Positions 7,801 through 23,135 of a DNA stretch of 30,090 nt are shown piece by piece. The notes beneath the pieces are model-generated. The model saw nothing but the letters and a program-made list of their open reading frames with translations. It was not told the DNA's origin and did not search any database. The DNA is from a virus. The first letter of the stretch is position 1. Each line of letters begins with the position of its first letter. Made by a program: the position numbers and the translations under genes. The stretch lies in IMG/VR virus record IMGVR_UViG_3300037808_000267, positions 1 to 30,090 of that record, one strand, 5' to 3'.

Positions 7801-7888
7801 GAAGCTATATAAGAGAGCCCTCACCGCTGCTGAAATTAGTAAAAACTATGAAGCTCAACGAGGTTTTTTCGAGAATATTAAAATCTAA
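4811..7888 (+). CDS. Virion protein with C-terminal concanavalin/LamG-like lectin domain
   Basis: A 1025-aa protein of unknown function. The N-terminal 200 residues look mostly helical. From roughly residue 690 to the end the sequence fits a concanavalin-A-like jelly roll: a strand with T-F-Q-T-W-M-H-V-P-D, later V-T-V-T-I-D-Y and EVAFWLNGQLM (the classic 'v.lyvnG' strand), and a closing GSVKLYKRALTAAEISKNYE, the standard LamG ending. Such domains bind glycans in many phage and bacterial surface proteins. It sits between the spike gene and the gp25 gene, so it is probably a virion protein. Binding of a host polysaccharide is inferred; no catalytic glycosidase residues could be identified. It ends one base into the next start codon (TAATG). 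Confidence 0.6.
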   Translation: MASWDFSKAAGIITTSPTPILDALSVQYGVPQCMLDMAKDILAAFPSPVLNSIQAGIQNGKDKADEMMKDIMRRIFLDSGIVEYDTDLGRFVFVSSSSNLGVEQDMLQGLNNLYGLGTILGFGAQAWVIGETALSQINQIKSCIDKWKTFETLQKGPSAIADKIAGFQALDPITGEVLTEYFAPPPAAEAASLVFDQTKATLEAAVGFANKADEQIQNIREITQARAKDPENNPEPAFWGGMVNTTPNSPWEGQTLTEALSGATTFNILEGLDVDANGNPILPPSALGEIFDPFTDVLTSSDVGPPVSVRGQYLQSQTGMYYNAYGGGINIPQVSSLDAYGNVVWKDGCITGIINAIYWDEAGDPIAGTGVPPEGLRWLLEQNPNIGGKGKAVTWATFNTWADTVFDIKHIDESPLMQGFYEQDHFLQVILDQRNRNIYDLSSYITNLKVEGYGEDSAQVVNQRQILYSKIADHDSKINRRKKQIEVHVILAPEDRPAVAGAIPINNLEDLDGAKLAIQKALQERIMFNPGEVSGAVLPLCPTFIKSAIPQDTFTVEELMVPPIGVGGIITSDPQASGTSGTYLALNDQITTKSLVAIYNFLDADIVLPDSNNYFTVNCATSSTSAAPAQIVASSIASMFPSGVGIPYFRGMCNTFSGVNGSTKASRYPNNLEYLYNAYRPLGYALLKQGEPDIDNFLYASGGATFQTWMHVPDLDQENGEGWAADKSVSALHRVVLGCENRGGSFSSADPLLAQGPQYGNTVRGLLMGFTRDRRLTQGTAPSNNPSENTLAQGLQFYMSPTQSINTSCVSFLAASANVAYCPQDEVPPSGYHGLYIDTSTTVGGIKFGDVSSNFMQVTVTIDYANKEVAFWLNGQLMTTSSTSYVFGVEGPPNIPSMVDSSSFSYSSLYDGKLAYNPPLYPPHSVGQTSFWYWGGPTPKGNGGVLMTPWIIGGGYTDGMSAKALPQYVAGSNDGSNFMGGKWGGKKSGLYGHLGSVKLYKRALTAAEISKNYEAQRGFFENIKI

Positions 7889-8391
7889 TGGCAACTACTA
7901 GCACACATAACAGGTATGGAGTACCCGTAAGCGAAGGAGCCCTAAAGGGGAGTGCCTCTCAATATAAGAAGAGGTATGGATTAGCTTACCCCCTTATCAG
8001 GAGCCTAGACGGTGCTGTTGTTGAGAGGAGTACTTTAAAGAAGGTGACTAGTCAGGGGGGCTACTTTCAAAAGTGTTCTGGACTAGCTTTGATTAAGAAT
8101 AATCTTAGACAATTGCTTTTAACTGAAAAAGGAGAGAGAGTGATGCTTCCTGATTATGGGCTGTCTTTAAGGAAGTATGTATTTGAACCTTTGGATGAAG
8201 TTACATATTTTTTAATCAAAACGGATATATTAAAAACTTTATATAAATACTTTAGGGTAGTTAAAGTTTTAACAGTAGCCGTAGGGTCCACGGAACAGCA
8301 GTCCGATAGAGGAGAGTTAATCATTAAACTTACTCTTCAGTTAGTAAATGACGATAAAGACATTTTTGATATAGAGGTAAATATAAACTAA
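7888..8391 (+). CDS. 25: Baseplate wedge protein gp25-like
   Basis: A 167-aa protein with the GPW/gp25 domain from about residue 55 to the end. Key stretches are ALIKNNLRQLLLTEKGERVM, then L-P-D-Y-G-L-S-L-R-K-Y-V-F-E-P (the conserved 'GER.m.P.yG..l..y.FeP' signature), and the closing strands LIIKLTLQLVNDDKDIFDIE. In T4, gp25 sits at the heart of the wedge near the sheath and is thought to help trigger sheath contraction. T4 gp25 is 132 aa; this one has about 40 extra basic residues at the N-terminus. It overlaps both neighbours by one base (TAATG) and is directly followed by gp6, the usual wedge partner. Confidence 0.9.
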   Translation: MATTSTHNRYGVPVSEGALKGSASQYKKRYGLAYPLIRSLDGAVVERSTLKKVTSQGGYFQKCSGLALIKNNLRQLLLTEKGERVMLPDYGLSLRKYVFEPLDEVTYFLIKTDILKTLYKYFRVVKVLTVAVGSTEQQSDRGELIIKLTLQLVNDDKDIFDIEVNIN

Positions 8392-9998
8392 TGGTATTCT
8401 CAGGAACAACAACTACAGATTTCATGAAGCTTGTTACTATCCCGGATAGGAAGAAGCAACAATATATTGATTTTGCAGCAGATGATTTTTATTCAATTAG
8501 AAAAGATTTAATTGGGTATATAAAATCGGTATACCCCTTGGATTATCAAAACTTTTCTGAGTCTGATTTAGGATTAATGTTAATAGAGCTTGTATCTTAT
8601 ATGGGCAGCGTGTTTTCTTTAAAGGGAGACATGTTAGCTAATGAAAATTATTTAAGGACAGTAAAAACTAGAGAAAATCTTAAAAAATTATTGGAGCTTA
8701 TTGGAGTTGATATGCGGGGTCCATTATCTGCCGCTGCTGCTGCTAGACTCACAGCAAATACTACCCCTCCTGAAGAGGACTTTCCTCTACTTGTTACTCC
8801 GTCTTCTAGAGTATTTTCAATTATTTCCAAAGAAGATGGGGCACCTGTAAATTACACTTTGTATAAGATTGTAAATAATACTATTTCGGATATTACTTCT
8901 CCTAACGCAACTTTTGAATTAAAGGGAGACGAAGCTGATAACGCAGCAAGTTCTGTTTTTACTAATGTAGCTATACTTGAAGGAGCTATGAGTGTTCAAA
9001 AAGGAACTTTTGATACCTTAGAGGGTAATAAACGAATTGCTTTAACAGACTCTCCAATTATTGAGGGAAGTGTTCAAGTGTTTATTAGTACTGGTAATAA
9101 AGAGGATGAGTCTAATGGAGCATACAGACAGGTCGAAAGACTATTTGCAGCCTCTGGCATAAACGACAGAGTTTTTCAAGTTATTTACGGGGATAACTAT
9201 ACGGCTACTCTCCTTTTTGGGGATGGTGTAACGGGTATTTCTCCTCCTGCGGGAGCAACCTTTACAATAGTGTATAGAGTGGGAGGAGGAAGTAGAGGAA
9301 ATATAATAGGAGGGGCTATCAATATTACTACTACAGTCGAGTCCTCGGATGGTAACACTTTTCATCCCTTCATTACAGAAAACATTACTCCAGCAACAGG
9401 GGGTCAAGATGCGGAGACGGCTGAACATGCTAAAAAGTATGCCCCTCTTACCTTTAAACGACAGGATAGGGTAGTAACCCTAGAAGATTACATTGCTATT
9501 GGAAACACTTTTAGAAGTAAACAAGGTACGGTAGGTAAAACTACTGCTGCGGTAAGAGATGCTTTCTCCTCTGCTAATGTTATTGATGTGTATACTTTAG
9601 AAAAGGCATCAGATCATACTCTTCAAAAGGCTTCTACTACATTTAAAAAAGACTTGTTGGAAGAGATTGAACCTAAGAAAATGTTAACAGATGAAGTGGT
9701 AGTTGTGGACGGTCTAATCAGAACCTTAGACTTAGTAGTTACTATTAGAATTGATGAGGAGTTAGAGCCAATCGCAGGAACGATTCAACAAGAAGTTGCT
9801 GAGATTATTATGAACTTTTTTAATGTAGATAACTTTGATTTCGGAAAACCCTTCATAACTAGTGAGCTAAATCGAGATATTTTTAATTTGGATAAAGTAC
9901 GATACGCTACTGTAGATAATCTCCCAGAAGTAACTAATGTTGATTTCCATGAGATTATTCAACTTAATAACTTTACAATTAATACGATAACGGTGTAA
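8391..9998 (+). CDS. 6: Baseplate wedge protein gp6-like (baseplate J family)
   Basis: A 535-aa protein with the gp6/gpJ hallmark at the N-terminus: an F-Y-S-I-R-K-D-L-I-x-Y motif, then FSESDLGLMLIELVSYMGSV and N-E-N-Y-L-R-T-V-K-T-R-E-N-L. A middle beta region (about 170-310) includes R-V-F-Q-V-I-Y-G-D-N and L-L-F-G-D-G-V-T-G, typical of the family. The C-terminal part (about 330-520) has T-G-G-Q-D-A-E-T-A and RQDRVVTLEDYIAI, the conserved baseplate J region. In T4, gp6 dimers form the inner ring of the baseplate and reorganise during contraction. T4 gp6 is 660 aa, so this is somewhat compact. It sits between gp25 and gp7 with TAATG junctions on both sides. Confidence 0.88.
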   Translation: MVFSGTTTTDFMKLVTIPDRKKQQYIDFAADDFYSIRKDLIGYIKSVYPLDYQNFSESDLGLMLIELVSYMGSVFSLKGDMLANENYLRTVKTRENLKKLLELIGVDMRGPLSAAAAARLTANTTPPEEDFPLLVTPSSRVFSIISKEDGAPVNYTLYKIVNNTISDITSPNATFELKGDEADNAASSVFTNVAILEGAMSVQKGTFDTLEGNKRIALTDSPIIEGSVQVFISTGNKEDESNGAYRQVERLFAASGINDRVFQVIYGDNYTATLLFGDGVTGISPPAGATFTIVYRVGGGSRGNIIGGAINITTTVESSDGNTFHPFITENITPATGGQDAETAEHAKKYAPLTFKRQDRVVTLEDYIAIGNTFRSKQGTVGKTTAAVRDAFSSANVIDVYTLEKASDHTLQKASTTFKKDLLEEIEPKKMLTDEVVVVDGLIRTLDLVVTIRIDEELEPIAGTIQQEVAEIIMNFFNVDNFDFGKPFITSELNRDIFNLDKVRYATVDNLPEVTNVDFHEIIQLNNFTINTITV

Positions 9999-12900
9999 TG
10001 GCAAGAAGGAAGATTACAAGAACTAAGTTTAGCGATCAAGGGGTAATCATTCCTGAGGTCGTTGCTGTAGTATCCGCAAAGGATAAAAATGTTGATCTTA
10101 ATACTCCGCAAAAATATTTTAAGAGAAACTACTTAGATGCTATCCGTACTGTAATCCCTCCTTTTTACTTGTCTGAAGAGAAGGATATTAGCGGGACGCA
10201 TGTTTCATATCCCAACCAGCTTATTAATTCTCACATTTTAGCAAACGCCAATCAGGCTACAATTCTTCCTGTATCTTCTTTGGGGGGCGATGAGTCTCTT
10301 TCTTCTATTGGAAGCCCATCAGGGTTTGCTAAGTTCTTTCATAAGACCTATTCCCCTGCTTCTATTTCTCCTGATGACTTTGAAAGAAATATTCTTTTTA
10401 AATTAGGGAAAGCTTATAAAGGGTTTTCTACAAGTACTGCTTTTCAAAATTATGTAAGTGGAACCTTGCTTCCGTCAATTCCTAGCCTAAGTGATGCAGA
10501 TATTAACTTGGCTACGACTACAGCAAGTGCTTTTGATAACACCTCTTCTGGAACCTATTCTTATCTTGTTAAAAACTTAGGGTGGCTATACTTCTTAAAT
10601 CGTAATGGGTCCGAGGAATTTACCCCCTCTACTGCGGTAGCAGAGTTGATGACCCAGACATTTTACAGGGGACAACCCGTTGTCTTAGAAGATTTAATCA
10701 ACATTTATCAAGAACATCTGTGGAAGGGGCAAGCCTCCTTCGGACTTACAGAAAAGATTATTCCCACAGATTATGTATCGTCTTTAGTTGTAAGCTCTAA
10801 TACCAATACGAGTGGTTCTCAATTACTTGATAGACTAAAGATTCTTAATACTATTAATTACTCTCCCCATTATGTGGATAGCCCCGATATAAAGATTGAA
10901 GAAGCGTTCACTACTTTCTTTGATACTTCAACGACATTAGAAATTGGGACTCTTATTACAGATACGGAGGAAGCAGGACCTTTAGCCAGATTCTTACAAG
11001 CTATGTCCTTCTCTTTTGCAGACAGACTTACGGAACAAGATGAGATAGGTATTCTATATGACATTGGGAAGTGTCCTGATGAGTTTCTAGAGCTTCTAGC
11101 CGAGTTAATTGGTTGGAGATTTATAGGTGCTGACTTTGATAAGTGGCGCGTACAGTTACGCAATGCTGTTGAAATTTATAAGATGAAGGGAACTAGAAGG
11201 TCCATTCAAATTCTAATGGATACTTTATTCTCTACTGGAATATTCAATGTTACCTCTAGTGATACTTTATCCGAGCTTTGGGAGTCGTATGTACCAGACC
11301 TTATGTATTATGCGTTAGCTACAAGCTCTGCTGCATTTCAAAAACTAGGTAGTACCTATACTGAAAAGGTAGCAACTCAATTTGGTATACCGCATTATAG
11401 TAATAAGAGCATGGATCTTAATATCAAATATGCTGTAGATAAGATAATGTTTGATTTAGTAAGAGACTTTCCTAGTTCTTTTCTTTTAGTAGGAAAACGG
11501 TTCCCCACTCCTGAGTTCGTTTATTCTGGAACAACCGTTGTGTACAATGGACCTTACCATTTAATGAGCCCCAACGGGGAGACTGACCCTTATTGGATGA
11601 CTGGGAGGGTACATGAGTCTTCCTCCCTTGCTTTAGATTTTAGGTATGATCCAGACTTTACTTTTGTGTATAGGAATCATTTAAACTATATCCCTCCTTA
11701 TGAGAAACGACAGTACTATACACAATCTCTATTAACTACACCTATGGTTGATAGGATAGAGTTTTATCTAAGGTGTTATGGTTGTGATGCTTCGTTTGCT
11801 AAAGAAGTAACCGATTATATTAGAACCCATACTAGCACGACTGTTAATGTTGATCAAGTTTTAAATAACTTCTTATTGTTTACTAAAAAGAAAACCTATC
11901 CCCCCAATTATGCTACTATTCTTCAAGATGTAACAAAGCAAAGAACCCCAGATCCCGCATCCTTATTGTCTTTGTGGAATGGGAAGTCTTCTCACTTCCT
12001 TATGTCTTTGGATGCTAGTTCTTTTGATTTTAAAACTAAGAGTTTTGGTTATAATACTTCTTATGGAATATCAAAGATTATGCCTATCTTAGATCAGGTT
12101 ATCCCTGCTCATGCTATCCCAGAGATTCTTTTGAATGTCTCAAGCGTAGCTGATGTTTTAGATGCTTTAGGGGATAACGACTGTAGAGAATGGCGACCTA
12201 ATTTTGATGATCTTTACGAGGGTTCTTCCACAGTTACTACGGGCTTTGGTGTGTGTGCGGTTAACATGGCTGCCCTTGCGGCAGCAAATAGTATTACCCC
12301 TCATCGTTTTAAGAGGTTCCAAGCAGATAATGTAACTGATGTTCTTTTATCAGGCAACACTTTTCAAGCTGTTGGGGACTCTAATAGAAACTCTTTGCGT
12401 AGGAGAAACTTTCATAACCTTCTTCCTGAAACAAAAATGTTCACAAGGAATGGAAGAAACAACCCTGGAAGTTTAGAGTTATCTAGTCCTTATTACTCTT
12501 CAGGGGTGGGATACCTTCCCTTAGGGTTTATGCCCTCTTCTTTAAGATATAAAGAAGTAGCACTATCACAGAATAAAAACGACTACGGCATTGGGTCACT
12601 CTTATCAGATAATGTTGATCCTGTATGGGATATCTGCCAGAACTTAACTTCCCCAAGTTCTATGTTTGGGTATGATATTAGTAATACTTTTGCTTCTAGA
12701 GCTAAACAAAATGTGGCTTCCTCCGATTGTAATACTTATGGAAGACGAGGACAACTACAAGAAATTATGTATGTTATGAATACTTTTCATGATAAGGAGA
12801 AGTATCTTCAAGCAAGCTCTATAGTTTCTGGCTACTATGATGAGGGGGGAATAATTGATCCTACTTGGCCTACTAGCAGTATACTATTAACTCCCAATGA

Positions 12901-14449
12901 TTTAAGTTCTTGGTATGCAGAAAAAGCTGTGTATAAGGGTTTGGATATTGTTGGATCTATAGCAAATCAGTTAATTAATAATGAAAGCTCAGATGAGTCT
13001 TTAAACTATTATGAACATTTTACTTTTGGCTCTAAAGTATTTAGGCTATACGATAGCTTTAATAAGCTTTACAAAGCACATGGAACTTCTAATAATTATA
13101 ATTTAATGGGGGGTGCTAATATCTTTAGTCATACCTACGGGCCTTATATTTATAATTCAGATTTTGATATCGACGGTTCTGGTTTAGAAGCCAGTAGTTT
13201 CTTATCTGCTAGTTCTACAGTATATGAAGTAGATATTGCTTACAATGGTGGAAGCGGGGTGTTAAGTATTTCAGGAGTAGAAGGAGAGTATGCGGTGGGA
13301 ACTTCAGCAGCTTCCTCAGTCTCAGACGCATACATTGGATCCCCAGAGTTTAGAAATCCAAATCTTGTAAGTGCTATTGAGTTAGTTGATTCTTCAGTTG
13401 GATGGATTTTTGGAGGACACGGGGGACCCCCTCATCCTATCTTCTCCTTGTTTAATTTGAGTAGGAATGAACAAAGTAAATGGTCTTTTAATCCAAAGCT
13501 TATAAATAATCAAATAATCAAGTACCACCGACCATCTAGTAACTCTTCATTTCCTAGGATTAGAATTCCTATTCATCCTGATAGCGGGCATTTATCAAAA
13601 AACTTTTTCCAACCTGATCATGAGTATGAAATAGATATTTTAGCTCATTGTTTGGAGGTTAGTGGGCTTGAACTTGGGGGTTTAACTTTAGGAGTGTTAA
13701 TACATACAGAGCCAGAAGATGATCAGCTATGGTATTATGATACCCAAGTTCAGGATGAGTGCGGGTTATATTTAGATAAGTGGAGCCAGTGTAAAATGTC
13801 TCAATTGTCTGGGGATGCGGGAATTGCGTTTGCTATTTCTAAAGCTCAGGCTATACCCTTTACTATGGGAAATTTAGATAATTATTCTTATAATGGAGAT
13901 GGCGGGGGTATGAAGCCCCTCAACACTTTATTTTCACATTGTTGGGAGCCGTGGTCTATAACTAGTATTGTGGGGTCTAACCCCCTAGCTATTAATAATG
14001 TTAGTGATCAGTCTCAAGAACGGTTTAAGTTTAGCTTCTCTACAAAGAATAATAAAGCAGTTAAACCCACCGCTAAATACCTCTCTCAGTTTGGAAAGGT
14101 TCATAGAACTGATCAAAAATATGTAATTGAAATTTTTGTTGTCAATGGACATCCCAATAAGTTTGTAGTTTTTGAAAAGGTATCTATTAAAGACCTTACA
14201 AATAAGAGCAACGCTAAGATACAGTCTAAATATGGAGATATTGATTTAAGTCTTTTTGATTTAAAAACTATATTTAAGTATTTCAAAACACTAAGTACTG
14301 GGCTTGCAAGTAGAAACGCAGTGAACACTTCTTCTGTAATGGAAGTAAGTGGAGGCAGTAGATTAAATTACCGTTCTAATGTAGATATGTATGATAACGC
14401 TAGAGCAGCTAATAACCAACTAACGAATATTACGATCAATGAGGGGTAA
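9998..14449 (+). CDS. 7: Baseplate wedge protein gp7-like with tail-protein-I segment
   Basis: A 1483-aa protein directly after gp6, the position of T4 gp7 (1032 aa). Residues about 335-415 match the phage tail protein I (P2 gpI) pattern: C-P-D-E-F-L-E-L-L-A-E-L-I-G-W-R-F, then R-N-A-V-E-I-Y-K-M-K-G-T-R-R-S-I-Q-I-L. This 'LA..ig...R..v.i...KGT' motif connects wedge proteins to the gp6/gpJ layer. A later beta-rich part (about 1165-1260) with F-P-R-I-R-I-P-I-H-P-D-S-G-H may be a jelly-roll-like domain, but I do not recognise it. The excess length over T4 gp7 suggests added peripheral domains. The stop overlaps the next gene by 11 bases. Confidence 0.72.
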   Translation: MARRKITRTKFSDQGVIIPEVVAVVSAKDKNVDLNTPQKYFKRNYLDAIRTVIPPFYLSEEKDISGTHVSYPNQLINSHILANANQATILPVSSLGGDESLSSIGSPSGFAKFFHKTYSPASISPDDFERNILFKLGKAYKGFSTSTAFQNYVSGTLLPSIPSLSDADINLATTTASAFDNTSSGTYSYLVKNLGWLYFLNRNGSEEFTPSTAVAELMTQTFYRGQPVVLEDLINIYQEHLWKGQASFGLTEKIIPTDYVSSLVVSSNTNTSGSQLLDRLKILNTINYSPHYVDSPDIKIEEAFTTFFDTSTTLEIGTLITDTEEAGPLARFLQAMSFSFADRLTEQDEIGILYDIGKCPDEFLELLAELIGWRFIGADFDKWRVQLRNAVEIYKMKGTRRSIQILMDTLFSTGIFNVTSSDTLSELWESYVPDLMYYALATSSAAFQKLGSTYTEKVATQFGIPHYSNKSMDLNIKYAVDKIMFDLVRDFPSSFLLVGKRFPTPEFVYSGTTVVYNGPYHLMSPNGETDPYWMTGRVHESSSLALDFRYDPDFTFVYRNHLNYIPPYEKRQYYTQSLLTTPMVDRIEFYLRCYGCDASFAKEVTDYIRTHTSTTVNVDQVLNNFLLFTKKKTYPPNYATILQDVTKQRTPDPASLLSLWNGKSSHFLMSLDASSFDFKTKSFGYNTSYGISKIMPILDQVIPAHAIPEILLNVSSVADVLDALGDNDCREWRPNFDDLYEGSSTVTTGFGVCAVNMAALAAANSITPHRFKRFQADNVTDVLLSGNTFQAVGDSNRNSLRRRNFHNLLPETKMFTRNGRNNPGSLELSSPYYSSGVGYLPLGFMPSSLRYKEVALSQNKNDYGIGSLLSDNVDPVWDICQNLTSPSSMFGYDISNTFASRAKQNVASSDCNTYGRRGQLQEIMYVMNTFHDKEKYLQASSIVSGYYDEGGIIDPTWPTSSILLTPNDLSSWYAEKAVYKGLDIVGSIANQLINNESSDESLNYYEHFTFGSKVFRLYDSFNKLYKAHGTSNNYNLMGGANIFSHTYGPYIYNSDFDIDGSGLEASSFLSASSTVYEVDIAYNGGSGVLSISGVEGEYAVGTSAASSVSDAYIGSPEFRNPNLVSAIELVDSSVGWIFGGHGGPPHPIFSLFNLSRNEQSKWSFNPKLINNQIIKYHRPSSNSSFPRIRIPIHPDSGHLSKNFFQPDHEYEIDILAHCLEVSGLELGGLTLGVLIHTEPEDDQLWYYDTQVQDECGLYLDKWSQCKMSQLSGDAGIAFAISKAQAIPFTMGNLDNYSYNGDGGGMKPLNTLFSHCWEPWSITSIVGSNPLAINNVSDQSQERFKFSFSTKNNKAVKPTAKYLSQFGKVHRTDQKYVIEIFVVNGHPNKFVVFEKVSIKDLTNKSNAKIQSKYGDIDLSLFDLKTIFKYFKTLSTGLASRNAVNTSSVMEVSGGSRLNYRSNVDMYDNARAANNQLTNITINEG

Positions 14450-15599
14450 GGTAGAAGTATATGCGATAGCCGCAGACGGCTCTCACAGCCTCGTAGCCGA
14501 GGGCAGCAACCTCGTACTAAACGGGGCAGGGGAGAGCGTTGTAGACATGCTCACGACCCCCTCAAGCGTTCTGGGAATAGCTCCAAGGGTCATGGACACT
14601 TCTAACTTCAGGATGGCTGCTGTATCCTTTGGTCCCGCTGCTTCCTCCTTCCAAGAGAACGGGTACTTTTTTCCTAAAGATAACATCTGGTATAAGACTG
14701 ATGATTTATGTTATGGAGCAAGTGCTAATGTTAGCTCATTAATTAATTTAATTGGAACTGATAAGAGAATGCGAGTTATGTGGACAAGCTCGATTACGGG
14801 ACAGGCTTCTGCTTATACTCCACCGTATAGACTACCCTCGTATCCTGATCCTACGAATACCAAGTTAGAAAATGCCGACACAGCATACTCTATTGTTAGT
14901 GGGGACGGAACACAGTCTTACGGCCAGTTTGAAAATAGAATTCAATTTAAGTCCTCGGATGCTTCGTCCTATTTTCAAGGAGTATTCCCCTCCAAAACTA
15001 CCAACTCTACTCAAGGAGCGTTAGTTAGTTCTTACGAGGGAGATTTTACTACTTATACTAATGTGACTGCAAGTACAGACGATGATGATGGTATTCGAGG
15101 ATTGTTTAACCTTAGAGAGTATATGGATTATAGGGGGTATTGCCATTTGAGATATGGTTCTGCTTTTACGGGGGCCAACCGTTTAGGAAGAGCCTTTGTT
15201 TCAGCAGCAGAAGTTTACGCAACCGCCGAAGCTATGGTAGTTGATCCCCGTGTAACCTATACGATAGGTGTCGGTATCTGGGATGTTTGGGCAATGAATC
15301 TCTACGGTGGACTCCACCAGATAGGACTTTGGAATATGGACTGTAAAGAAGCGTTAAAAAATAATGAAGCCCCTTTCTTAGAAAATGGAGTAATAACTGA
15401 TGATAATCCTCAGTTTATTAACACATCAACTGGAGTAACCAAACAGGAATTTAAGTTATTTGCTAAAAAAACCTTTACTGAAAACTTATGTGCTAATAAA
15501 GACCATACCCCCATCGGTGGAAGCGCGAACCCAGGATTTATTAAGCATAAAAATCTGTATATTCTGTGGACACTAGATTTTAGGTCACAACATGATTAA
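14439..15599 (+). CDS. Structural protein, first of three tandem paralogues
   Basis: A 386-aa protein of unknown function, the longest of three related neighbours. The start is shared with its paralogues: a short strand, D-G, then G-S-N-L-V-L-N-G-A-G, comparable to 'Y.DG......N.it.G.G' in the next two genes. The end carries E-F-K-L-F-A-K-K and later L-Y-I-L-W-T-L-D-F, matching the paralogues' 'evGLFaKnP' and 'W.i.F'. The central 200 residues are extra. It overlaps the gp7-like gene by 11 bases and the next paralogue by 8. The 5' end is clearly richer in GC than its surroundings. Position after gp7 suggests a baseplate-peripheral or fibre-adaptor role; it does not resemble T4 gp8, as far as I can judge. 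Confidence 0.55.
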   Translation: MRGKVEVYAIAADGSHSLVAEGSNLVLNGAGESVVDMLTTPSSVLGIAPRVMDTSNFRMAAVSFGPAASSFQENGYFFPKDNIWYKTDDLCYGASANVSSLINLIGTDKRMRVMWTSSITGQASAYTPPYRLPSYPDPTNTKLENADTAYSIVSGDGTQSYGQFENRIQFKSSDASSYFQGVFPSKTTNSTQGALVSSYEGDFTTYTNVTASTDDDDGIRGLFNLREYMDYRGYCHLRYGSAFTGANRLGRAFVSAAEVYATAEAMVVDPRVTYTIGVGIWDVWAMNLYGGLHQIGLWNMDCKEALKNNEAPFLENGVITDDNPQFINTSTGVTKQEFKLFAKKTFTENLCANKDHTPIGGSANPGFIKHKNLYILWTLDFRSQHD

Positions 15600-16332
15600 A
15601 GGACATATCACAATTTGTAAGGTGTACAGCGATGGCACCCAAGAAACAGTAGTAGACAGAGGTAATTTGATTACTGCTGGGCTAGGGTCCTCCCTTATCG
15701 ACATACAGATGGGGGGCGGCTCAGATTATGTTGATGGGTATGGGCCTTACTACTTCCAAGTAGGAACCGATACGATAGACTATGCTACTAAGTTTGAGGC
15801 AGCTACTTCTGCTTGTTTTTATACACTATCCTCCCCGTTTGGTTGGGCAGATTATGGTGATAATACGGATTATGAGGTTACTAAACGGTATAGAGGCTTC
15901 TATGCATCTAGTGAGGGGGGAGAATATAAGGAAATGTTTGGGACTACTGCGCCCCTCTCATCCGTTATATTCTCAGGATCAGATGAGTATTTTGCTAAAG
16001 TAACTGAGGGGAGAATTACTAAAGTTTTTATGGACTCCTTTGAGTCTGAGATAATTCTTGATGAAAATACAGGTAATGGTAAGCTAATTTCCGAGGTGGG
16101 ATTGTTTGCTAAAAACCCCAAAGGGCTTAAAGAGGATACCCCCATTTTGATGGCTTATAGAAGTTTTGCAGGGGTTCCAAAAACTAAAGAATATTCTTTA
16201 GTTATCCATTGGTCTATAGGATTCTTAGGACTTTCAAGAAACATTGATGACCATTACTCAGGAGGGGTATATATTCCTGTAGATACTCTAGCCTATGACC
16301 AAACATCCTCCAAACCCTCCTACCTATTATAA
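15592..16332 (+). CDS. Structural protein, second of three tandem paralogues
   Basis: A 246-aa protein. The N-terminus has HITICKVYSDGTQETVVDRG and then N-L-I-T-A-G-L-G. The C-terminal region has L-I-S-E-V-G-L-F-A-K-N-P-K-G, then A-Y-R-S-F, K-T-K-E-Y-S-L-V-I-H-W-S-I-G-F. These blocks align residue by residue with the third paralogue, so the two arose by duplication. The 'E-x-G-L-F ... aYr.F ... Kt..fsl...W.i.f' ending is a pattern I associate with virion proteins of large tailed phages, with no settled role that I know. A tail of about 25 residues after the shared end is unique to this copy. The start overlaps the previous stop by 8 bases. Confidence 0.55.
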   Translation: MIKGHITICKVYSDGTQETVVDRGNLITAGLGSSLIDIQMGGGSDYVDGYGPYYFQVGTDTIDYATKFEAATSACFYTLSSPFGWADYGDNTDYEVTKRYRGFYASSEGGEYKEMFGTTAPLSSVIFSGSDEYFAKVTEGRITKVFMDSFESEIILDENTGNGKLISEVGLFAKNPKGLKEDTPILMAYRSFAGVPKTKEYSLVIHWSIGFLGLSRNIDDHYSGGVYIPVDTLAYDQTSSKPSYLL

Positions 16333-16341
16333 GGTATAGCT

Positions 16342-16971
16342 ATGAAAAAAGAAGATTACTTAGACGCATCAGGACACTTAGAGATTTGGAAGGTATACCC
16401 AGACGGCTCTGAGGAAAATGTTTTTGATGATAAGAATACGATTACTTCGGGGATGGGAGTAGGGTTAGGTCTTTTATATGCAGGGTCAGGAGCTACAGAT
16501 ATAACTAATTTCCAAATTAGATATTTTCAATTAGGTACTAAAGGTGATACCATTATCAATACTTATGGGGTATCTGAATCTGCACTCGTCTCAGCCTTAG
16601 GACAGGATAATGGTATCGCAGATTATCATACTAATGCAGAGTCGTTTCTGCCTATTGACATTCATGAAGAAATGGCTTGGAATGGAGAAGCTAGACCTGT
16701 ACAAACAACAGGGGATGATAGTAACAATTACCTCTTCCCTGTAATATCAGATAATAGTATCAAAAGGGTTGATCTTAATTCTGTAACCTATATACTTTAC
16801 ATAGACCAGAGTACCTGTAATGGTAATACTCTAAACGAGGTGGGGTTATTTATGAAAAACCCCCTAGGGTATGATCCAGAGAGGTCTCCTCTTGTGGCAT
16901 ATAGACCCTTCACAAATATTGAAAAGACTAATGATTTTTCATTAGTCTTTAAATGGACATTGAATTTCTAA
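16342..16971 (+). CDS. Structural protein, third of three tandem paralogues
   Basis: A 209-aa protein, the shortest copy and probably closest to the basic domain. The N-terminus has S-G-H-L-E-I-W-K-V-Y-P-D-G-S-E-E-N-V and then N-T-I-T-S-G-M-G-V-G-L. The C-terminus has L-N-E-V-G-L-F-M-K-N-P-L-G, A-Y-R-P-F, K-T-N-D-F-S-L-V-F-K-W-T-L-N-F. It is separated from the second copy by 9 bases containing an AAGGT-type ribosome site and from the beta-helix gene by 1 base. Function unknown; three variants of one fold next to the fibre genes suggest an adaptor or collar series. Confidence 0.55.
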   Translation: MKKEDYLDASGHLEIWKVYPDGSEENVFDDKNTITSGMGVGLGLLYAGSGATDITNFQIRYFQLGTKGDTIINTYGVSESALVSALGQDNGIADYHTNAESFLPIDIHEEMAWNGEARPVQTTGDDSNNYLFPVISDNSIKRVDLNSVTYILYIDQSTCNGNTLNEVGLFMKNPLGYDPERSPLVAYRPFTNIEKTNDFSLVFKWTLNF

Positions 16972-16972
16972 C

Positions 16973-19900
16973 ATGGCATTTCAACCAACAGACTTATATC
17001 TACCTTCGGGCACAGGCACTCTGATTAATAATTGGGTTGATCCTGTTTATAAATTCGATTCAAGCTCTTTCTATAACTGGGAGCAGGATAACCTACCAAT
17101 CTATGATCTAGAGGATCGTGATGATTACTTGTATGAGATGGCTGGCTACCCAACTTCTGCTGTTGATGGGATCATGCTAACTGTATCAGCTTGTGGAATT
17201 GATAACAAGAAGGTCTTCGGTACAGTATCTGATGCTTTAGAAGCACTTCCTAATACCATCAGGTTCCCTATTATTATTGAGGTGTGTACTAGCGGTCAGC
17301 TAGGAGGAATCCATGTAGAGAATAAGGAGTTTGAAGGCTCTAGTGCTGGTCTGGAAATTATCAACAGAGGGTTTGCTAAATCTTTATGTGGATCAAGCCT
17401 TACCCCTTCGTCATTTATTACTACTGTAGATGCTAATTCAAGTGCTATTACTCAATTTGAGTCTGAGGATCTGAGTAATACTATGCTAGAGTCCTCTTCC
17501 TTAGGAGTGAGGGATACAGTATGGCAAAAGAATGCTCTGGGAGCTTACTCTTGGTGGGGAAACTTTACTAGAACTTTTGTTCTAGCTCCCGAATGGGCTA
17601 AGGCGGCTGCTACTAGTAATAAGACCATCACTATTTCTACTAAGTTTACCGATACAACAGGGGACCTCTTTGACGCAGTTGCCAACAAGTTTAATGTAGG
17701 AAACTATAGGGATAACTCTACTGCCACAGAAACACTGATTCTTAACCCTAGAACTTCAGTCCTTGTACAAAGAAGTGCCTATGCTACCCCAACCAATACC
17801 TCACGGGCTGTGGGGCTGGTATACGCAAACTCCGCTAGTGGAGTGACAGTTAAGGATTGCGCTGGTAAGGTGTATATTAGAGGCTTCTGCGTAGATGGAG
17901 GCTCTCAAGCTTCTCTGAATAGTGGAGGTGAACAGAGGACTAATATTGGTTTTGATATTGAAAATTCAGAGGTGTTAATAGAAAACTGTACTGCCACTAG
18001 ATGTAAGGATGCTGGGTTACAAGCGGTTAACTCTCATGTAACTTTAAATAGAGGCTTTATAGCTTTTAGAAATTACGAGCTTGAGACTGTGGGGCCGCAC
18101 TTAGATACTAAGGTTACAACAAATCCGACTCCTGGACTAAGAGCAATAACCTCTACTATTACTCTAAATGCGGCGACAGAAGATGCATTAGGTCTTCCCC
18201 TAGACTCTCCTTTCTGTTTCTATAAGAATATGGTTGGAATGGATCTACAAAACTCTGTTGTACAGACTCCTGCTGATTTTAGATATGGAAAAGATGCAAA
18301 TGGAGAAAGTAATAATAATATCGAGGGAAGCCAAAGTTTAGTTCTTCAAACTTTCTTTAATATTAATGAAGGTATTAAAGCTGTAAACTCAACAATTAAT
18401 ACAGGTCAGGTTATCGCCTCCTTCCAAAATGATAAGGGGATTGTATTAGAAAATTCGGTTGTGAAAGCAGCTATCATTACGGCTGATCATAATAGGTATG
18501 AGGGGTTAAAGGCTGTTAATTCTGTTTTGAATTATAACCAATACGCTGAACTCATGTGGCCAACTGGACCGTTCTACCCTAATACTAATTTTGATAACAA
18601 CGGACAGCATATTGTTTTATCTAACTCTGAGGTTATCCCTACTATGGATAGTGAAATAGATGCAAAGTGTACAAGATTTGGATTAAGCGGTACACACGGT
18701 ATGGAGGAGTTTGGGGGAGGTGAGTATACCTCTCTTCCTGCCGTAGTAATTACTGATGGTTCTCATATGAAAGCCTTATTTACACGGGCCGAAGTACACC
18801 AGTCTACCGAAGATGGACCTGCATATTCGATTGTTAACGCAGTAAAGGGTAGTATATTCCAAGTTACTAAGGGAAGTAATTTGGAATTAAACGGTACTTC
18901 TAACAACTCTACTATGATCTTAGGACCTTACTCATCCGATAAACAGCAAAAAACTGCGGCTCTTTATGCAGGAGATAATTCTCATATTAGCATAACAGGC
19001 CCCACTAGCATTGTTCAATTCGGAATTGATGCCTTAGCAGAAAATCACTCTACTATTGAGATCGGTCCTCCTATGAAAGACGGAGTACTAGATATTCGTA
19101 ATTTTAGTTTGGGCACCACGAACAACCACACCAAAGTTCAATTACATGCTACTAGAGCTTGTTTAGTAGCTAATAAAAATTCTCATATTTATATGCACGA
19201 TGCTGGGGATTACCACAGGTTTTGGGCTTCTAAACATCTTGCAGATACTGAAGACTATGATACCGATGTTTTAAATACTTCAAGCTATACTTCTCATGGA
19301 TACATTCAATTTTATCCAAACCCCTTTGCTCCTTATGGAACAGAAGTAACTCAGTTAGACTTACAAGGACAAGCGAGATGGTGCGCTGATAATAATAAAG
19401 TTGGTCTGAATAATACTACCCAGAAAGCTTACGAAGAGCTTCCTCAACAAGATGTAGCAGTAGGTGATGCTGTGTCAAGTCTTTCCTATGGTGGAATGTG
19501 TGTAAGAGCAGTTGGAGGAAGTGAAGTTACCGCAAGGAATGTAACCTTCCCTACAGGCTGGGCAAACCCTTCTGGTCCTTATTATGATGCTTCTACTATT
19601 GGAAACTGTGACCTGTTAAGGATTTGGAATATTGCAGATAACTCAGAGCTACATGCTTCCTACTTAACAGTTTCCTCTTATTTCCCAGAAGACGCTAGTG
19701 GAATCTATTATGGTCCTAGTGCTGTGTGGACATCTTCATTAAATACTGGTTTGTCTGGCGCACCTTCTTCTACAGCGGATACAAGTGGCTTAAGTGTTCT
19801 AGATTCCTTTGGGTTGGGAGTTAACACGGGTGGGGACCTTGGCTACTATGGAAAACCTCTACAGCAAAACATCGGACCCTTTAGAATTTATGTTTCTCCC

Positions 19901-20428
19901 CATCCTAAAGCGAAGTGGTTAGGATATCCTCATACGATTGCAGGGGAGGGTTATATGCCTCCACAACCCCCTGTTGCATTTGTAAGTATGGGCTTTAACT
20001 TCCCAAACACGGCAACACTAAAAACAGGGGCACCTTATCAGCTTTACGCACAAGGTTATTCAACTTCCTCTGATTGTAGTTCTTTAGATCCTACTACTGC
20101 TAGTGACATTTACCAAGACTTAGGTATGAGTGGTCATATTATTACTCTTCCCTCCTCGATGCAGGTTGAAAATGTAGCATCTTCCTTCTTTTACACTTCA
20201 GCTATGCTGTCTTGTGATAATGAGACTAGGATTTGGTTAGATAAGTCTGCTATGAACACTTTTGCAAACGCTAAGAATGGCACTTTAGGAACCTCAGGAA
20301 GAAAGAAAATCTTTAGTTATTATAAAGCCATAATGGAATATCCAGGAGAGGGTTGGTGGCAAGCTACCGCAGGATTTGGTGTAGGGTTAGGATCCGCAAA
20401 CCTCTTTGATTTAGATAGAGACTTATAA
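16973..20428 (+). CDS. Tail fibre/spike-like protein with right-handed beta-helix
   Basis: An 1151-aa adhesin-type virion protein. Residues 31-53 hold a motif shared with the next gene (F-Y-N-W-E-Q-D-N-L-P-I-Y-D-L-E), probably the part that attaches to the virion. From about residue 300 onward it shows beta-helix rungs: G-F-D-I-E-N-S, G-L-Q-A-V-N-S, G-M-D-L-Q-N-S, G-I-K-A-V-N-S, G-I-V-L-E-N-S and G-L-K-A-V-N-S, at glycine positions 326, 348, 422, 467, 489 and 511, i.e. steps of 22. Further S-H-[IM] turns continue to about residue 750. Phage beta-helix proteins of this type commonly bind or cut host polysaccharide; no catalytic site could be assigned. The C-terminal 350 residues are not recognised. 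Confidence 0.62.
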   Translation: MAFQPTDLYLPSGTGTLINNWVDPVYKFDSSSFYNWEQDNLPIYDLEDRDDYLYEMAGYPTSAVDGIMLTVSACGIDNKKVFGTVSDALEALPNTIRFPIIIEVCTSGQLGGIHVENKEFEGSSAGLEIINRGFAKSLCGSSLTPSSFITTVDANSSAITQFESEDLSNTMLESSSLGVRDTVWQKNALGAYSWWGNFTRTFVLAPEWAKAAATSNKTITISTKFTDTTGDLFDAVANKFNVGNYRDNSTATETLILNPRTSVLVQRSAYATPTNTSRAVGLVYANSASGVTVKDCAGKVYIRGFCVDGGSQASLNSGGEQRTNIGFDIENSEVLIENCTATRCKDAGLQAVNSHVTLNRGFIAFRNYELETVGPHLDTKVTTNPTPGLRAITSTITLNAATEDALGLPLDSPFCFYKNMVGMDLQNSVVQTPADFRYGKDANGESNNNIEGSQSLVLQTFFNINEGIKAVNSTINTGQVIASFQNDKGIVLENSVVKAAIITADHNRYEGLKAVNSVLNYNQYAELMWPTGPFYPNTNFDNNGQHIVLSNSEVIPTMDSEIDAKCTRFGLSGTHGMEEFGGGEYTSLPAVVITDGSHMKALFTRAEVHQSTEDGPAYSIVNAVKGSIFQVTKGSNLELNGTSNNSTMILGPYSSDKQQKTAALYAGDNSHISITGPTSIVQFGIDALAENHSTIEIGPPMKDGVLDIRNFSLGTTNNHTKVQLHATRACLVANKNSHIYMHDAGDYHRFWASKHLADTEDYDTDVLNTSSYTSHGYIQFYPNPFAPYGTEVTQLDLQGQARWCADNNKVGLNNTTQKAYEELPQQDVAVGDAVSSLSYGGMCVRAVGGSEVTARNVTFPTGWANPSGPYYDASTIGNCDLLRIWNIADNSELHASYLTVSSYFPEDASGIYYGPSAVWTSSLNTGLSGAPSSTADTSGLSVLDSFGLGVNTGGDLGYYGKPLQQNIGPFRIYVSPHPKAKWLGYPHTIAGEGYMPPQPPVAFVSMGFNFPNTATLKTGAPYQLYAQGYSTSSDCSSLDPTTASDIYQDLGMSGHIITLPSSMQVENVASSFFYTSAMLSCDNETRIWLDKSAMNTFANAKNGTLGTSGRKKIFSYYKAIMEYPGEGWWQATAGFGVGLGSANLFDLDRDL
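17948..18568 (+). repeat. 22-residue beta-helix rung repeats inside the fibre protein
   Basis: In-frame protein-level repeats with consensus G-[hydrophobic]-x-[hydrophobic]-x-N-S-x-[V/I/L]. Glycines begin at nucleotides 17948, 18014, 18236, 18371, 18437 and 18503. Spacings of exactly 66 bases occur between 17948 and 18014, 18371 and 18437, and 18437 and 18503. The DNA itself is only partly conserved, so the repeats are old and selected at protein level, as expected for stacked beta-helix rungs with an asparagine ladder. Confidence 0.65.
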
Positions 20429-20429
20429 T

Positions 20430-23135
20430 ATGGCATACAAATTTCATCAACCTATTAGATACTATAAGGCAAACGATCCTTATTATTATGAAGTAGACAA
20501 CCTTCCAGTTCGTCAGCTTGAAGAGAATATTCTCTTTATTAAAAATAAATTAGAAGGACCAAAAGGCGGTAGTGGAGGTGGCTACCTTACTGAGACTAGT
20601 GAGCTTAGTATTTATAATATTAAGGAGTTACGCCCAAAATCGTCTGGAGGGCGTACTATTAATGTAAATGCAGGTAGGTTTAATTCTAGAATTAATGATG
20701 CTTATAATATAGGCGATACTTTAGCTTCTCTAGTATATGATTCCGTTGGTCCCGGAGGAAGCGAACCTGTTTTAATTCCTGCTTTACGAAATATGTGGAC
20801 GGAGGTACAACGAGATGCCGTATGGAACTCTTTTATTATTAGTGGAGAAAAGCCTTATAATGTTAATGGATTAGAAATTGCTTTTACTTTTTATTCTAGC
20901 CCTGGAGGTGAAGGGGGTAATTGGGGATGGAATACAACTAGTGAGAGAGGTGCTAATTATCCTAAGTATAACATGTCAAGCCAGAGTCATCGCTGGCCTG
21001 GAATGAGTAACTTTGGTCCCCTTGTTGCATCACAACTAGGACCAGTAATTGAATATAATAACCAATACACTTATGAGAACTTACCTTCTATTCATCTAGC
21101 GTTTGTTAAGAAGTGGAGAGGTGTCTTTAGAACTTCTGTTGTAGATTTTCCTGAACAGACTATAGAGATCCCAGCTTTTGATGAGTGGGACTACTACTAT
21201 AGAAGTACGGGAGAAGTAGATGTTGTTATTCCTAATGCAACTCAACGCATTGATTTATTGGTAGCTTATAGTGTTCCCATTGACGCTAGTTCAACTACTA
21301 GACCCAGTTACGAGGAAACATTCTGTCAAATAGGCGGCACCCCAAAACCTAAGCTTGAAACTAAGCCTATGCTTGGTCTTGTAAGAGGTGCAGGAGTGGG
21401 TATTCAAAAAAATAATACTAATGTAGTCCCAAGTATCTCTACAAAAGAGGGGTGTCCTCCAGATAAAGGTACACCAGGATCAGCTAGAATTGCTGGTAAT
21501 ATAAATGATACACAAGCTACGGCAAACCTGGGGATTACAGACTCTGCTGGAAATGTTATTCACGGTAGTTTCCCCTCTCCTGACGATCTTCTAAATATAG
21601 CACCCCTATTAGCTATAGATGTTGATGATGATGATTTACAACTAGTGGGACAAGCTGCTCTTCCTATTGCTTATATTGTAGTTAAACAAGGTCAAGCTAA
21701 TATTACACAAGCTGATATTATTGATATCAGACCCTTCCTTCGTACTACGGAATTTACCTATAATGAACGGGCTGGCGTAGCAGGAGCTAATCCCCCTCTA
21801 TCCCTTGCTAATCCTGCGGTGGGATTATTCCAATTACAAGATGTAACTAAGAAAATTTATACTAGTTTGTATGGATCTATAATCCCCACTTCTGAAATAA
21901 AAGATGGTAAGATTCTTTATACTGATTATGTGATGGGGGGTTTGGCTTATGGTCCTGAAGGAACTCTTTTGAGTATGAACGCTAACTCGTCTCACACTCA
22001 AGATCCTTGGGGAACAACTACACAAAATGCAGGTTTAACTTATGGAGATACTACTTATACCTTCTCTCAGTATACTTCTAATAAAGCCTTTCTAGAAGAA
22101 GCTACTATTACAAATAAAGAAGCTCTACTCCAGTACTTCTATAATAATCGTCAAGCTGATCTAAAAGTATGGCTATCTGATCCTAATTCTTCCTTTAATG
22201 TGGCTAATGGAACCTACTTAGGTCTCCCAGGAGGTACGGAGGGAAGAAATATTCCTCTTTACCCAGAGTGGGATCAACCTTATAACTCTTTAAACCAAGC
22301 CTCAGTTATGACTGGCGCACAGAAATCTGCTAAGGCTACTTGGTGGATGTTTATTGAAGGTTGGAGCGCAGCACGGCAGATTTCCTATCTTCCTGGGGGA
22401 GTGGCCTCTATCAGAGGAACGAAGGACCAATCCGCTAACTGGTTAGATGTAGATTTTAATCCAAGTTGGGGAAGCACAAAATTCCAAGCAATGATTGTTA
22501 CCAATACTAAGCGTATTGAAATTATACTCCCAGACTGGGCGCAAGATTATGATGTTCTAGTAGAATATGTGAATTGTGGACCTCTCACTTCTACCTCTGA
22601 TCCCACAGCGGGTGGCTCGTCAGCAGGTACTAATAAAGGCTTAGGTTCTGGATTATATGTAAACAAAGGTCCTGTTGTTAGTACCCCACAGAAATCCGCA
22701 GTATTTTATATCAACTCTGCTTCTCAGCCCATTCCAGAGAGTAATGGAGGCATATGTGATGGTCGAGTAACAGATGAAGAAGCCAGTAACGGAAATAACT
22801 GTGATGGAACTAGAAAATCTCCTCCTGGTCCTAACGCTGCTTATGATTGGTTGAGCTATCAAGTTTGCTTACCACAGTTTACATCTACAGCATGGGGAAT
22901 GAATCAACAAGGGGATACTTTTAATAACACCACAAGATTTGCCCCTAAGTTTGGGATGTGTTTTTATCCTACTGTTAAGTTTTCAGTAGTTGCTTATAAG
23001 GAGCTTGTTCTTAATAGAAATAGTAATTTGGGAGCCGCAAACAATTATACTTTGATTGAGACAGCAGGTAACTCTGGAGATATCTTATCACCAACTGCTC
23101 CTCTTTATACAGGGACAGTTGTTGATCTATCGTAA
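20430..23135 (+). CDS. Second tail fibre-like virion protein
   Basis: A 901-aa protein one base after the beta-helix gene. Residues 17-35 (P-Y-Y-Y-E-V-D-N-L-P-V-R-Q-L-E-E-N) match the N-terminal motif of the upstream fibre, pointing to the same docking site on the virion. A short Gly-rich linker follows (G-P-K-G-G-S-G-G-G). Residues about 410-445 (L-P-I-A-Y-I-V-V-K-Q-G, I-T-Q-A-D-I-I-D-I-R-P-F) resemble a segment seen in fibre proteins of T4-like phages. The rest is Gly-, Asn- and Tyr-rich with aromatic patches, suggesting an extended beta structure. No enzyme motif is seen. It may be a longer fibre partner or an alternative receptor binder to the upstream gene. Confidence 0.55.
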   Translation: MAYKFHQPIRYYKANDPYYYEVDNLPVRQLEENILFIKNKLEGPKGGSGGGYLTETSELSIYNIKELRPKSSGGRTINVNAGRFNSRINDAYNIGDTLASLVYDSVGPGGSEPVLIPALRNMWTEVQRDAVWNSFIISGEKPYNVNGLEIAFTFYSSPGGEGGNWGWNTTSERGANYPKYNMSSQSHRWPGMSNFGPLVASQLGPVIEYNNQYTYENLPSIHLAFVKKWRGVFRTSVVDFPEQTIEIPAFDEWDYYYRSTGEVDVVIPNATQRIDLLVAYSVPIDASSTTRPSYEETFCQIGGTPKPKLETKPMLGLVRGAGVGIQKNNTNVVPSISTKEGCPPDKGTPGSARIAGNINDTQATANLGITDSAGNVIHGSFPSPDDLLNIAPLLAIDVDDDDLQLVGQAALPIAYIVVKQGQANITQADIIDIRPFLRTTEFTYNERAGVAGANPPLSLANPAVGLFQLQDVTKKIYTSLYGSIIPTSEIKDGKILYTDYVMGGLAYGPEGTLLSMNANSSHTQDPWGTTTQNAGLTYGDTTYTFSQYTSNKAFLEEATITNKEALLQYFYNNRQADLKVWLSDPNSSFNVANGTYLGLPGGTEGRNIPLYPEWDQPYNSLNQASVMTGAQKSAKATWWMFIEGWSAARQISYLPGGVASIRGTKDQSANWLDVDFNPSWGSTKFQAMIVTNTKRIEIILPDWAQDYDVLVEYVNCGPLTSTSDPTAGGSSAGTNKGLGSGLYVNKGPVVSTPQKSAVFYINSASQPIPESNGGICDGRVTDEEASNGNNCDGTRKSPPGPNAAYDWLSYQVCLPQFTSTAWGMNQQGDTFNNTTRFAPKFGMCFYPTVKFSVVAYKELVLNRNSNLGAANNYTLIETAGNSGDILSPTAPLYTGTVVDLS

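Follow-up and report, generated by a model that had tools for sequence, protein, structure and literature searches.

The sequence analyzed here, from an uncultured tailed phage, is the IMG/VR record IMGVR_UViG_3300037808_000267, studied as one stretch of 30,090 bases; the whole record is called the window below. Directly after its gp7-like baseplate gene lie three tandem genes, A, B and C. We consider it likely that they are diverged copies of one connector of the T4 gp8/A511 gp105 type and sit at the baseplate rim, between the gp7-like wedge protein encoded upstream and the fibers encoded downstream. T4 gp8 and A511 gp105 belong to the class named BW3TFN, for baseplate wedge 3 to tail fiber network connector, and the A-B-C set is best read as related to that class in a sequence-blind way, with an informative split into fixed and variable members. 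What is new is that the three gene slots differ in freedom: C is constant, and A and B accept insertions or tails.

Three tandem copies of one scaffold

The genes and their parts are as follows.

14439..15599, + strand: gene A, an open reading frame of 386 amino acids (aa); connector paralogue whose A-specific middle splits the scaffold, its two ends homologous to B/C by profile
14439..14663, + strand: N-terminal scaffold block of A, residues 1–75, aligned by hhalign to the N-block of B/C
14664..15290, + strand: A-specific middle, residues 76–284, with no B/C match (probability 0.1%); from alignment and length range, the site of giant insertions in relatives
15291..15590, + strand: C-terminal scaffold block of A, residues 285–384, aligned by hhalign to the C-block of B/C
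15592..16332, + strand: gene B, 246 aa, connector paralogue homologous to C over its full length, with scaffold blocks at residues 1–62 and 142–211 and a 35-aa C-terminal tail
16342..16971, + strand: gene C, 209 aa, connector scaffold without additions and of constant length across relatives, characterized by an AlphaFold2 model and PDB comparison

B and C are 31% identical across 208 residues (E 9e-32), and their profile comparison gave a probability of 99.6% (E 5e-24). Both match phrog_5417 over positions 11–156 of its 156 (E 2.8e-7 for B and 8.5e-8 for C); A does not match this family. A is much more distant. BLASTP aligned it with B at E 8e-5 in the first 37 residues and at 0.053 at the C-terminus, and with C at E 0.007, and an initial profile comparison with few sequences joined only the N-terminal block of A to B/C (probability 29%, E 5.8e-4). 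Iterated hidden Markov models (HMMs) proved unsuitable, the B/C profile having taken in A sequences, and their E-values were set aside in favor of deeper profiles built separately for A (23 rows) and B/C (47 rows). With these, hhalign matched the N-blocks with a probability of 97.7% (E 1.4e-12) and the C-blocks with 92% (E 6e-7). As controls, the A middle was set against the whole of B/C, and the blocks were crossed (the A N-block with the C-block of C, the A C-block with the N-block of C); all three comparisons gave 0.1–0.5%. Since the ends of A match B/C and neither the middle nor the crossed comparisons do, A represents this scaffold with its two blocks held apart by about 210 residues of its own. 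Cleanly built HMMs lend weaker but consistent support to this homology: at E < 1e-3, the B/C profile recovers 17 of 23 A sequences, and in the reverse direction 17 of 45 B/C sequences are recovered by that of A.

The initial annotation, made from the letters of the window, had described three paralogous proteins of stepwise decreasing size that share an N-terminal and a C-terminal block, most alike between the second and third. The pairwise profile alignment bears out both the paralogy and the ranking, and both blocks have profile support. The C-terminal signature needs correcting for A, which carries 'KLFAKKTFTENL' in the stretch that the profile alignment places opposite 'LVAYRPFTNIEKT' of B/C. 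For 'EVGLF', the likeliest counterpart in A is 'HQIGLW' (residues 293–298), a match judged by eye and lying outside the profile alignment. The decrease in size is true of the window (386, 246 and 209 aa) but not of the relatives, where only C keeps its size. At the DNA level, repeats in the region amounted to short matches only.

A fixed C slot beside variable A and B slots

Relatives were gathered by IMG/VR scans, which yielded 4, 5, 41 and 28 loci, and by a wider profile scan, in which 325 relatives were confirmed and the top 80 retained. Genes were mapped in 115 loci, several from one contig. The array is complete from gp7 to F1, the first large gene downstream of C, in 87 contigs; contigs cut inside the array were excluded from length and copy-number counts. 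Dereplication at 90% identity of C reduced the 87 contigs to 62 clusters, 43 with A-B-C and 19 with A-C. B forms a single clade relative to C (support 99/93), so the slots are old and have kept their identity. In L122, L124 and L125, three contigs related to one another and counted with A-B-C, the middle gene has 206 aa and scores as C-like rather than as B. This second C-like gene may be a separate duplication, in which case the B slot may lack a single origin everywhere.

Outside these contigs, six records of named phages match C, and none match A or B; the L037 protein in the C slot and the L088 protein in the A slot have no match there either. A 595-kb uncultured phage (LR756511) encodes a weakly C-like protein about 2 kb after a gp6 match (L077:18347-18808; E 2.8e-5 with the C profile and 0.0025 with the B/C profile). 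Bacterial and archaeal genome contigs gave 13 pattern matches, none of them confirmed, and we therefore assign no host.

Across all 62 clusters, C stays at 189–221 aa, A ranges from 321 to 2161 aa and B from 206 to 1523 aa. Both scaffold blocks are found at the ends of A in 82/87 contigs. Among the 43 clusters with B, the gene is essentially bare in 19, the window included; 14 clusters add a C-terminal tail of 500–1307 residues, 9 an insertion of about 430–470 residues that separates the blocks, and 1 combines the two. The copies in the window are modest, with a short middle in A, the 35-residue tail in B and a bare C. Among the long proteins, 2 of 31 in the A slot have RCC1 propeller repeats (best E 4e-51), and 3 of 24 in the B slot have a sulfatase domain (PF00884, best E 5e-29):

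L046:5724-8969: A-slot connector with RCC1 beta-propeller repeats between the scaffold blocks
L111:4136-7114: A-slot connector with RCC1 beta-propeller repeats between the scaffold blocks
L106:4393-8961: B-slot connector with C-terminal sulfatase domain
L099:5744-8992: B-slot connector with C-terminal sulfatase domain
L126:4417-8961: B-slot connector with C-terminal sulfatase domain

All three sulfatase-bearing B proteins have an intact C-[ST]-P-T-R motif, which we take to be the sulfatase active-site signature. Searched against PDB sequences, the L106 protein retrieved sulfatases (best E 2e-8). Two B tails gave weak esterase-like matches under Pfam cut-offs, and most long inserts in A and B match no Pfam family. 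A narrow literature search found nothing on a sulfatase in a phage baseplate.

Under the connector reading, C would serve as the invariant structural bead, with A and B as beads that additionally carry modules outward, as binding domains or enzymes, by insertion or C-terminal tail. One could go further and picture the rim as a modular gp8-fold arm, with C fixed and with A and B as payload beads that gain modules, including an active sulfatase that trims sulfated surface polysaccharide at adsorption; this is speculative, and we would not bet on it. A different division of labor is that A and B serve mainly at the host surface, as binding proteins or enzymes, and use the scaffold just as a mount, which would leave C as the sole structural connector. 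The restriction of length variation to A and B speaks for it, as do the sulfatases and propellers and the precedent of Bacillus phage Vp4 Gp119, a protein of gp105 fold with two carbohydrate-binding modules whose fusion to green fluorescent protein binds host cells (PMC11406892, in the portion that describes it). We nevertheless think it unlikely, given how often B is essentially bare, how A retains the scaffold even around a short middle, and how few long inserts have a family match.

Fixed and variable slots standing side by side reveal which connector can gain host-contact modules. The variable slots also point to phage sulfatases and propellers that are missed when only fiber genes are inspected.

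Fold and gene position of a probable gp8-class connector

An AlphaFold2 model of C built with 45 sequences had a predicted local distance difference test score (pLDDT) of 91.2 and a predicted template modeling score (pTM) of 0.88. The top 12 PDB matches by VIA-align were all phage tail or neck proteins, with Z-scores of 8.9–5.1, and unrelated entries followed from 4.8. The first was a tail chain of HFTV1 (Z 8.9, 128 aligned residues, 2.3 Å), and phiKZ gp139 (8.4) and a phiKZ outer baseplate protein (7.8) also scored highly. A511 gp105 (6.6, 108 aligned), T4 gp8 (6.3, 111 aligned), phi812 baseplate (6.3) and arm segment (6.1) chains, a variant from phage KP1 (6.3), a second gp8-sized T4 chain (5.6) and a 1004-residue T4 baseplate chain (5.5) were among the rest. 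Phages Bas63 and Sf14 each have a small neck protein with the same arrangement as C (chains 9mt4_K and 9c39_K, Z 5.4 and 5.1). The weak model of A led to phiKZ gp139 (7.7) and a phiKZ outer baseplate protein (7.5), and its 15 best viral matches all lie within the best 23 of C. For the two proteins modeled, A and C, structure prediction points in one direction. C has the gp8/gp105 fold of the BW3TFN class, with the reserve that the Z-scores are moderate.

Gene position points the same way. The neighboring wedge genes are:

7888..8391, + strand: gp25-like baseplate wedge protein (phrog_261, E 1.4e-16), the gp25 label being drawn from gene order
8391..9998, + strand: gp6/J-like baseplate wedge protein (phrog_219, E 2e-37)
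9998..14449, + strand: gp7/tail protein I-like protein in the BW3 position, 1483 aa, presumed attachment partner (Pfam Tail_P2_I)

The match of the gp7-like protein to Tail_P2_I is narrow (E 3.3e-4, 21 bits, cut-off 20.6; phrog_48, 0.011). The full order in the window is gp25-like, gp6/J-like wedge, gp7/tail-protein-I-like, A, B, C, the large genes F1, F2 and F3, and PAAR, and it parallels gp25/gp6/gp7/gp8 in T4 and phiM12. A, B and C thus occupy the T4 gp8 position, as had been noted from the window, and they follow gp7 also in the 87 contigs, where a gp7 gene before the array was required. The accompanying remark that they do not look like gp8 was right about sequence and wrong about fold. 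By hhalign against ten gp8 sequences the probability was at most 0.5%, and T4 gp8 is among the structural matches of C. Since there is no sequence link to gp8, class membership rests on fold together with gene position, and from these we regard it as quite likely that A, B and C are gp8-class connectors.

Several observations weigh against this assignment. Foldseek found nothing in the PDB for the C model at E ≤ 1e-3 (best A511 gp105 at 0.087 and the phi812 arm segment at 0.13). VIA-align Z-scores of 6–7 can arise from a common arrangement, and the A model is weak (pLDDT 58, pTM 0.69). Sequence comparison offers no link to T4 gp8, gp9, gp10, gp11, gp7, gp6 or gp53, Pfam Phage-Gp8 matches none of A, B and C at E ≤ 1, and the B/C profile retrieved nothing relevant from PDB sequences. 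In addition, the presence of A, B and C in virions is a prediction. The C fold also occurs in fiber N-termini and archaeal filamentous viruses among matches in BFVD, so fold alone does not settle the role. Some of these matches are named tail-collar fiber; the tail-collar fiber N-terminal domain PF12571 had no match in the window, and its controls were positive in 2/14 genomes. The filamentous virus proteins come from Betalipothrixvirus, Acidianus filamentous virus 1 and SIFV, viruses without such a baseplate.

Alternatively, the resemblance to gp8 could be a mere common beta arrangement, with A, B and C forming another peripheral part of the tail; the Z-scores of 6–7 and the missing sequence link would fit. 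We find this improbable, because the 12 best PDB matches are without exception tail or neck proteins, set off by a gap from unrelated ones, and because the genes lie directly after gp7.

As gp8-class connectors, A, B and C would act as dimers, like beads, and the conserved tail of the gp7-like protein may be the place of the chain. That C-terminal tail (window 14250-14449) keeps the pattern SRN...SGGSRxNYR in most relatives, the rest of the sequence being divergent, and is a candidate docking string. A mixed chain of A, B and C along gp7 is conceivable, but we hold the idea only tentatively. As connectors of this class, two or three different proteins would do in the phage group what several copies of a single protein do in T4 and A511.

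The large downstream genes and known connectors

Three large genes follow C:

16973..20428, + strand: F1, 1151 aa, presumed fiber with an N-terminal anchor at about residues 22–61, homologous to that of F2
20430..23135, + strand: F2, 901 aa, presumed fiber with an N-terminal anchor at about residues 6–46, homologous to that of F1
23157..25991, + strand: F3, 944 aa, third large gene, adjoining the PAAR gene, with a different N-terminus that matches neither F1 nor F2

The N-termini of F1 and F2 are homologous over an anchor of about 40 residues (probability 93%, E 2.8e-7), and a PDB sequence search with F1 found nothing. The anchor carries a DNLP motif (window 16973-17160 and 20430-20570).

The initial annotation had suggested three adaptor variants for three different fibers. 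An adaptor role as such is plausible because known connectors that join the baseplate wedge to the fibers agree with C in fold and with the array in gene position. A dedicated adaptor for each large protein is another matter. Three genes do precede three genes in the window, the slots are old and unmixed, and in the first set of relatives a large gene in the F3 position was present in 15/15 contigs with B and 0/10 without. This perfect coupling did not survive the wider set of relatives. There, among the 43 clusters with B, a third large gene is present in 27 and absent from 1, with 15 not scorable; of the 19 without B, 10 have it, 4 have none and 5 were not scorable, so that 10/14 scorable clusters keep F3 without B. 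(The F3 of L053 is cut at 252 aa, and its score of 'none' in the per-contig count is an artifact.) One three-connector lineage, L128/L129, has A, B, C, F1 and F2 but no F3, and F3 has nothing of the anchor common to F1 and F2. The 10/14 clusters and L128/L129 leave a one-bead-one-fiber pairing unsupported; among the dereplicated clusters, connector number does not track the number of large downstream genes, and we consider dedicated adaptors distinctly improbable.

C may instead hold the fibers with the common anchor, F1 and F2, although we rate this as rather doubtful. In a distance correlation over 18 loci, C covaried with the F1 and F2 N-termini beyond gp6 (partial r 0.69 and 0.61; 0.38–0.44 for A or B), which is a hint only, because A and B are nearer saturation.

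Small genes beside fiber genes are often chaperones. That A, B and C are assembly helpers for the large fibers or gp6, outside the virion, is nonetheless very improbable: PMC3004832 also lists help in the folding of gp6 among the roles of T4 gp8, but describes gp8 itself as a virion protein, and a helper would have little use for inserts that reach about 1800 residues or for a scaffold-fused sulfatase.

If A, B and C are rim connectors, phrog_5417, so far labeled unknown, gains a role, and the homo-oligomeric connector of model phages is replaced by a specialized set of paralogues in a widespread uncultured group (325 confirmed relatives in one scan).

Among known systems, the connector role between baseplate wedge and fibers and the beads-on-a-string arrangement are described for Listeria phage A511 (PMC10811340, in part). 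Its gp105 resembles C in fold and in its connector position after the BW3 protein (same source). No sequence match of gp105 to A, B or C was found, and A511 strings three dimers of one protein where the window group has two or three paralogous genes. T4 gp8 likewise shares with A-B-C the place directly after gp7 and with C the fold, but it is one gene, a dimer present in 12 copies (PMC3004832, in the section concerned), and has no sequence similarity to them. The phiKZ gp139 and outer baseplate proteins are close in fold to both C and A, but the baseplate gene set of this jumbo phage is unrelated. Two sequence relatives differ from the array in being single copy, Vibrio phage D69 gene 16 (profile E 1.9e-17) and gp28 of the archaeal Halogranum tailed virus 1, HGTV-1 (4.5e-9); the latter sits directly after baseplate gene 27. 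The garland proteins gp125/gp127 of phage Milano, likened to A-B-C by description, have a gp8/gp105-like fold and more than one gene of the class per phage, but they lie away from the baseplate (PMC10811340, as far as its account of them goes). The nearest parallel to A and B in bearing extra modules on a gp105-like fold is Vp4 Gp119, which is a single gene and carries carbohydrate-binding modules, with no enzyme reported in the sections of PMC11406892 that deal with it.

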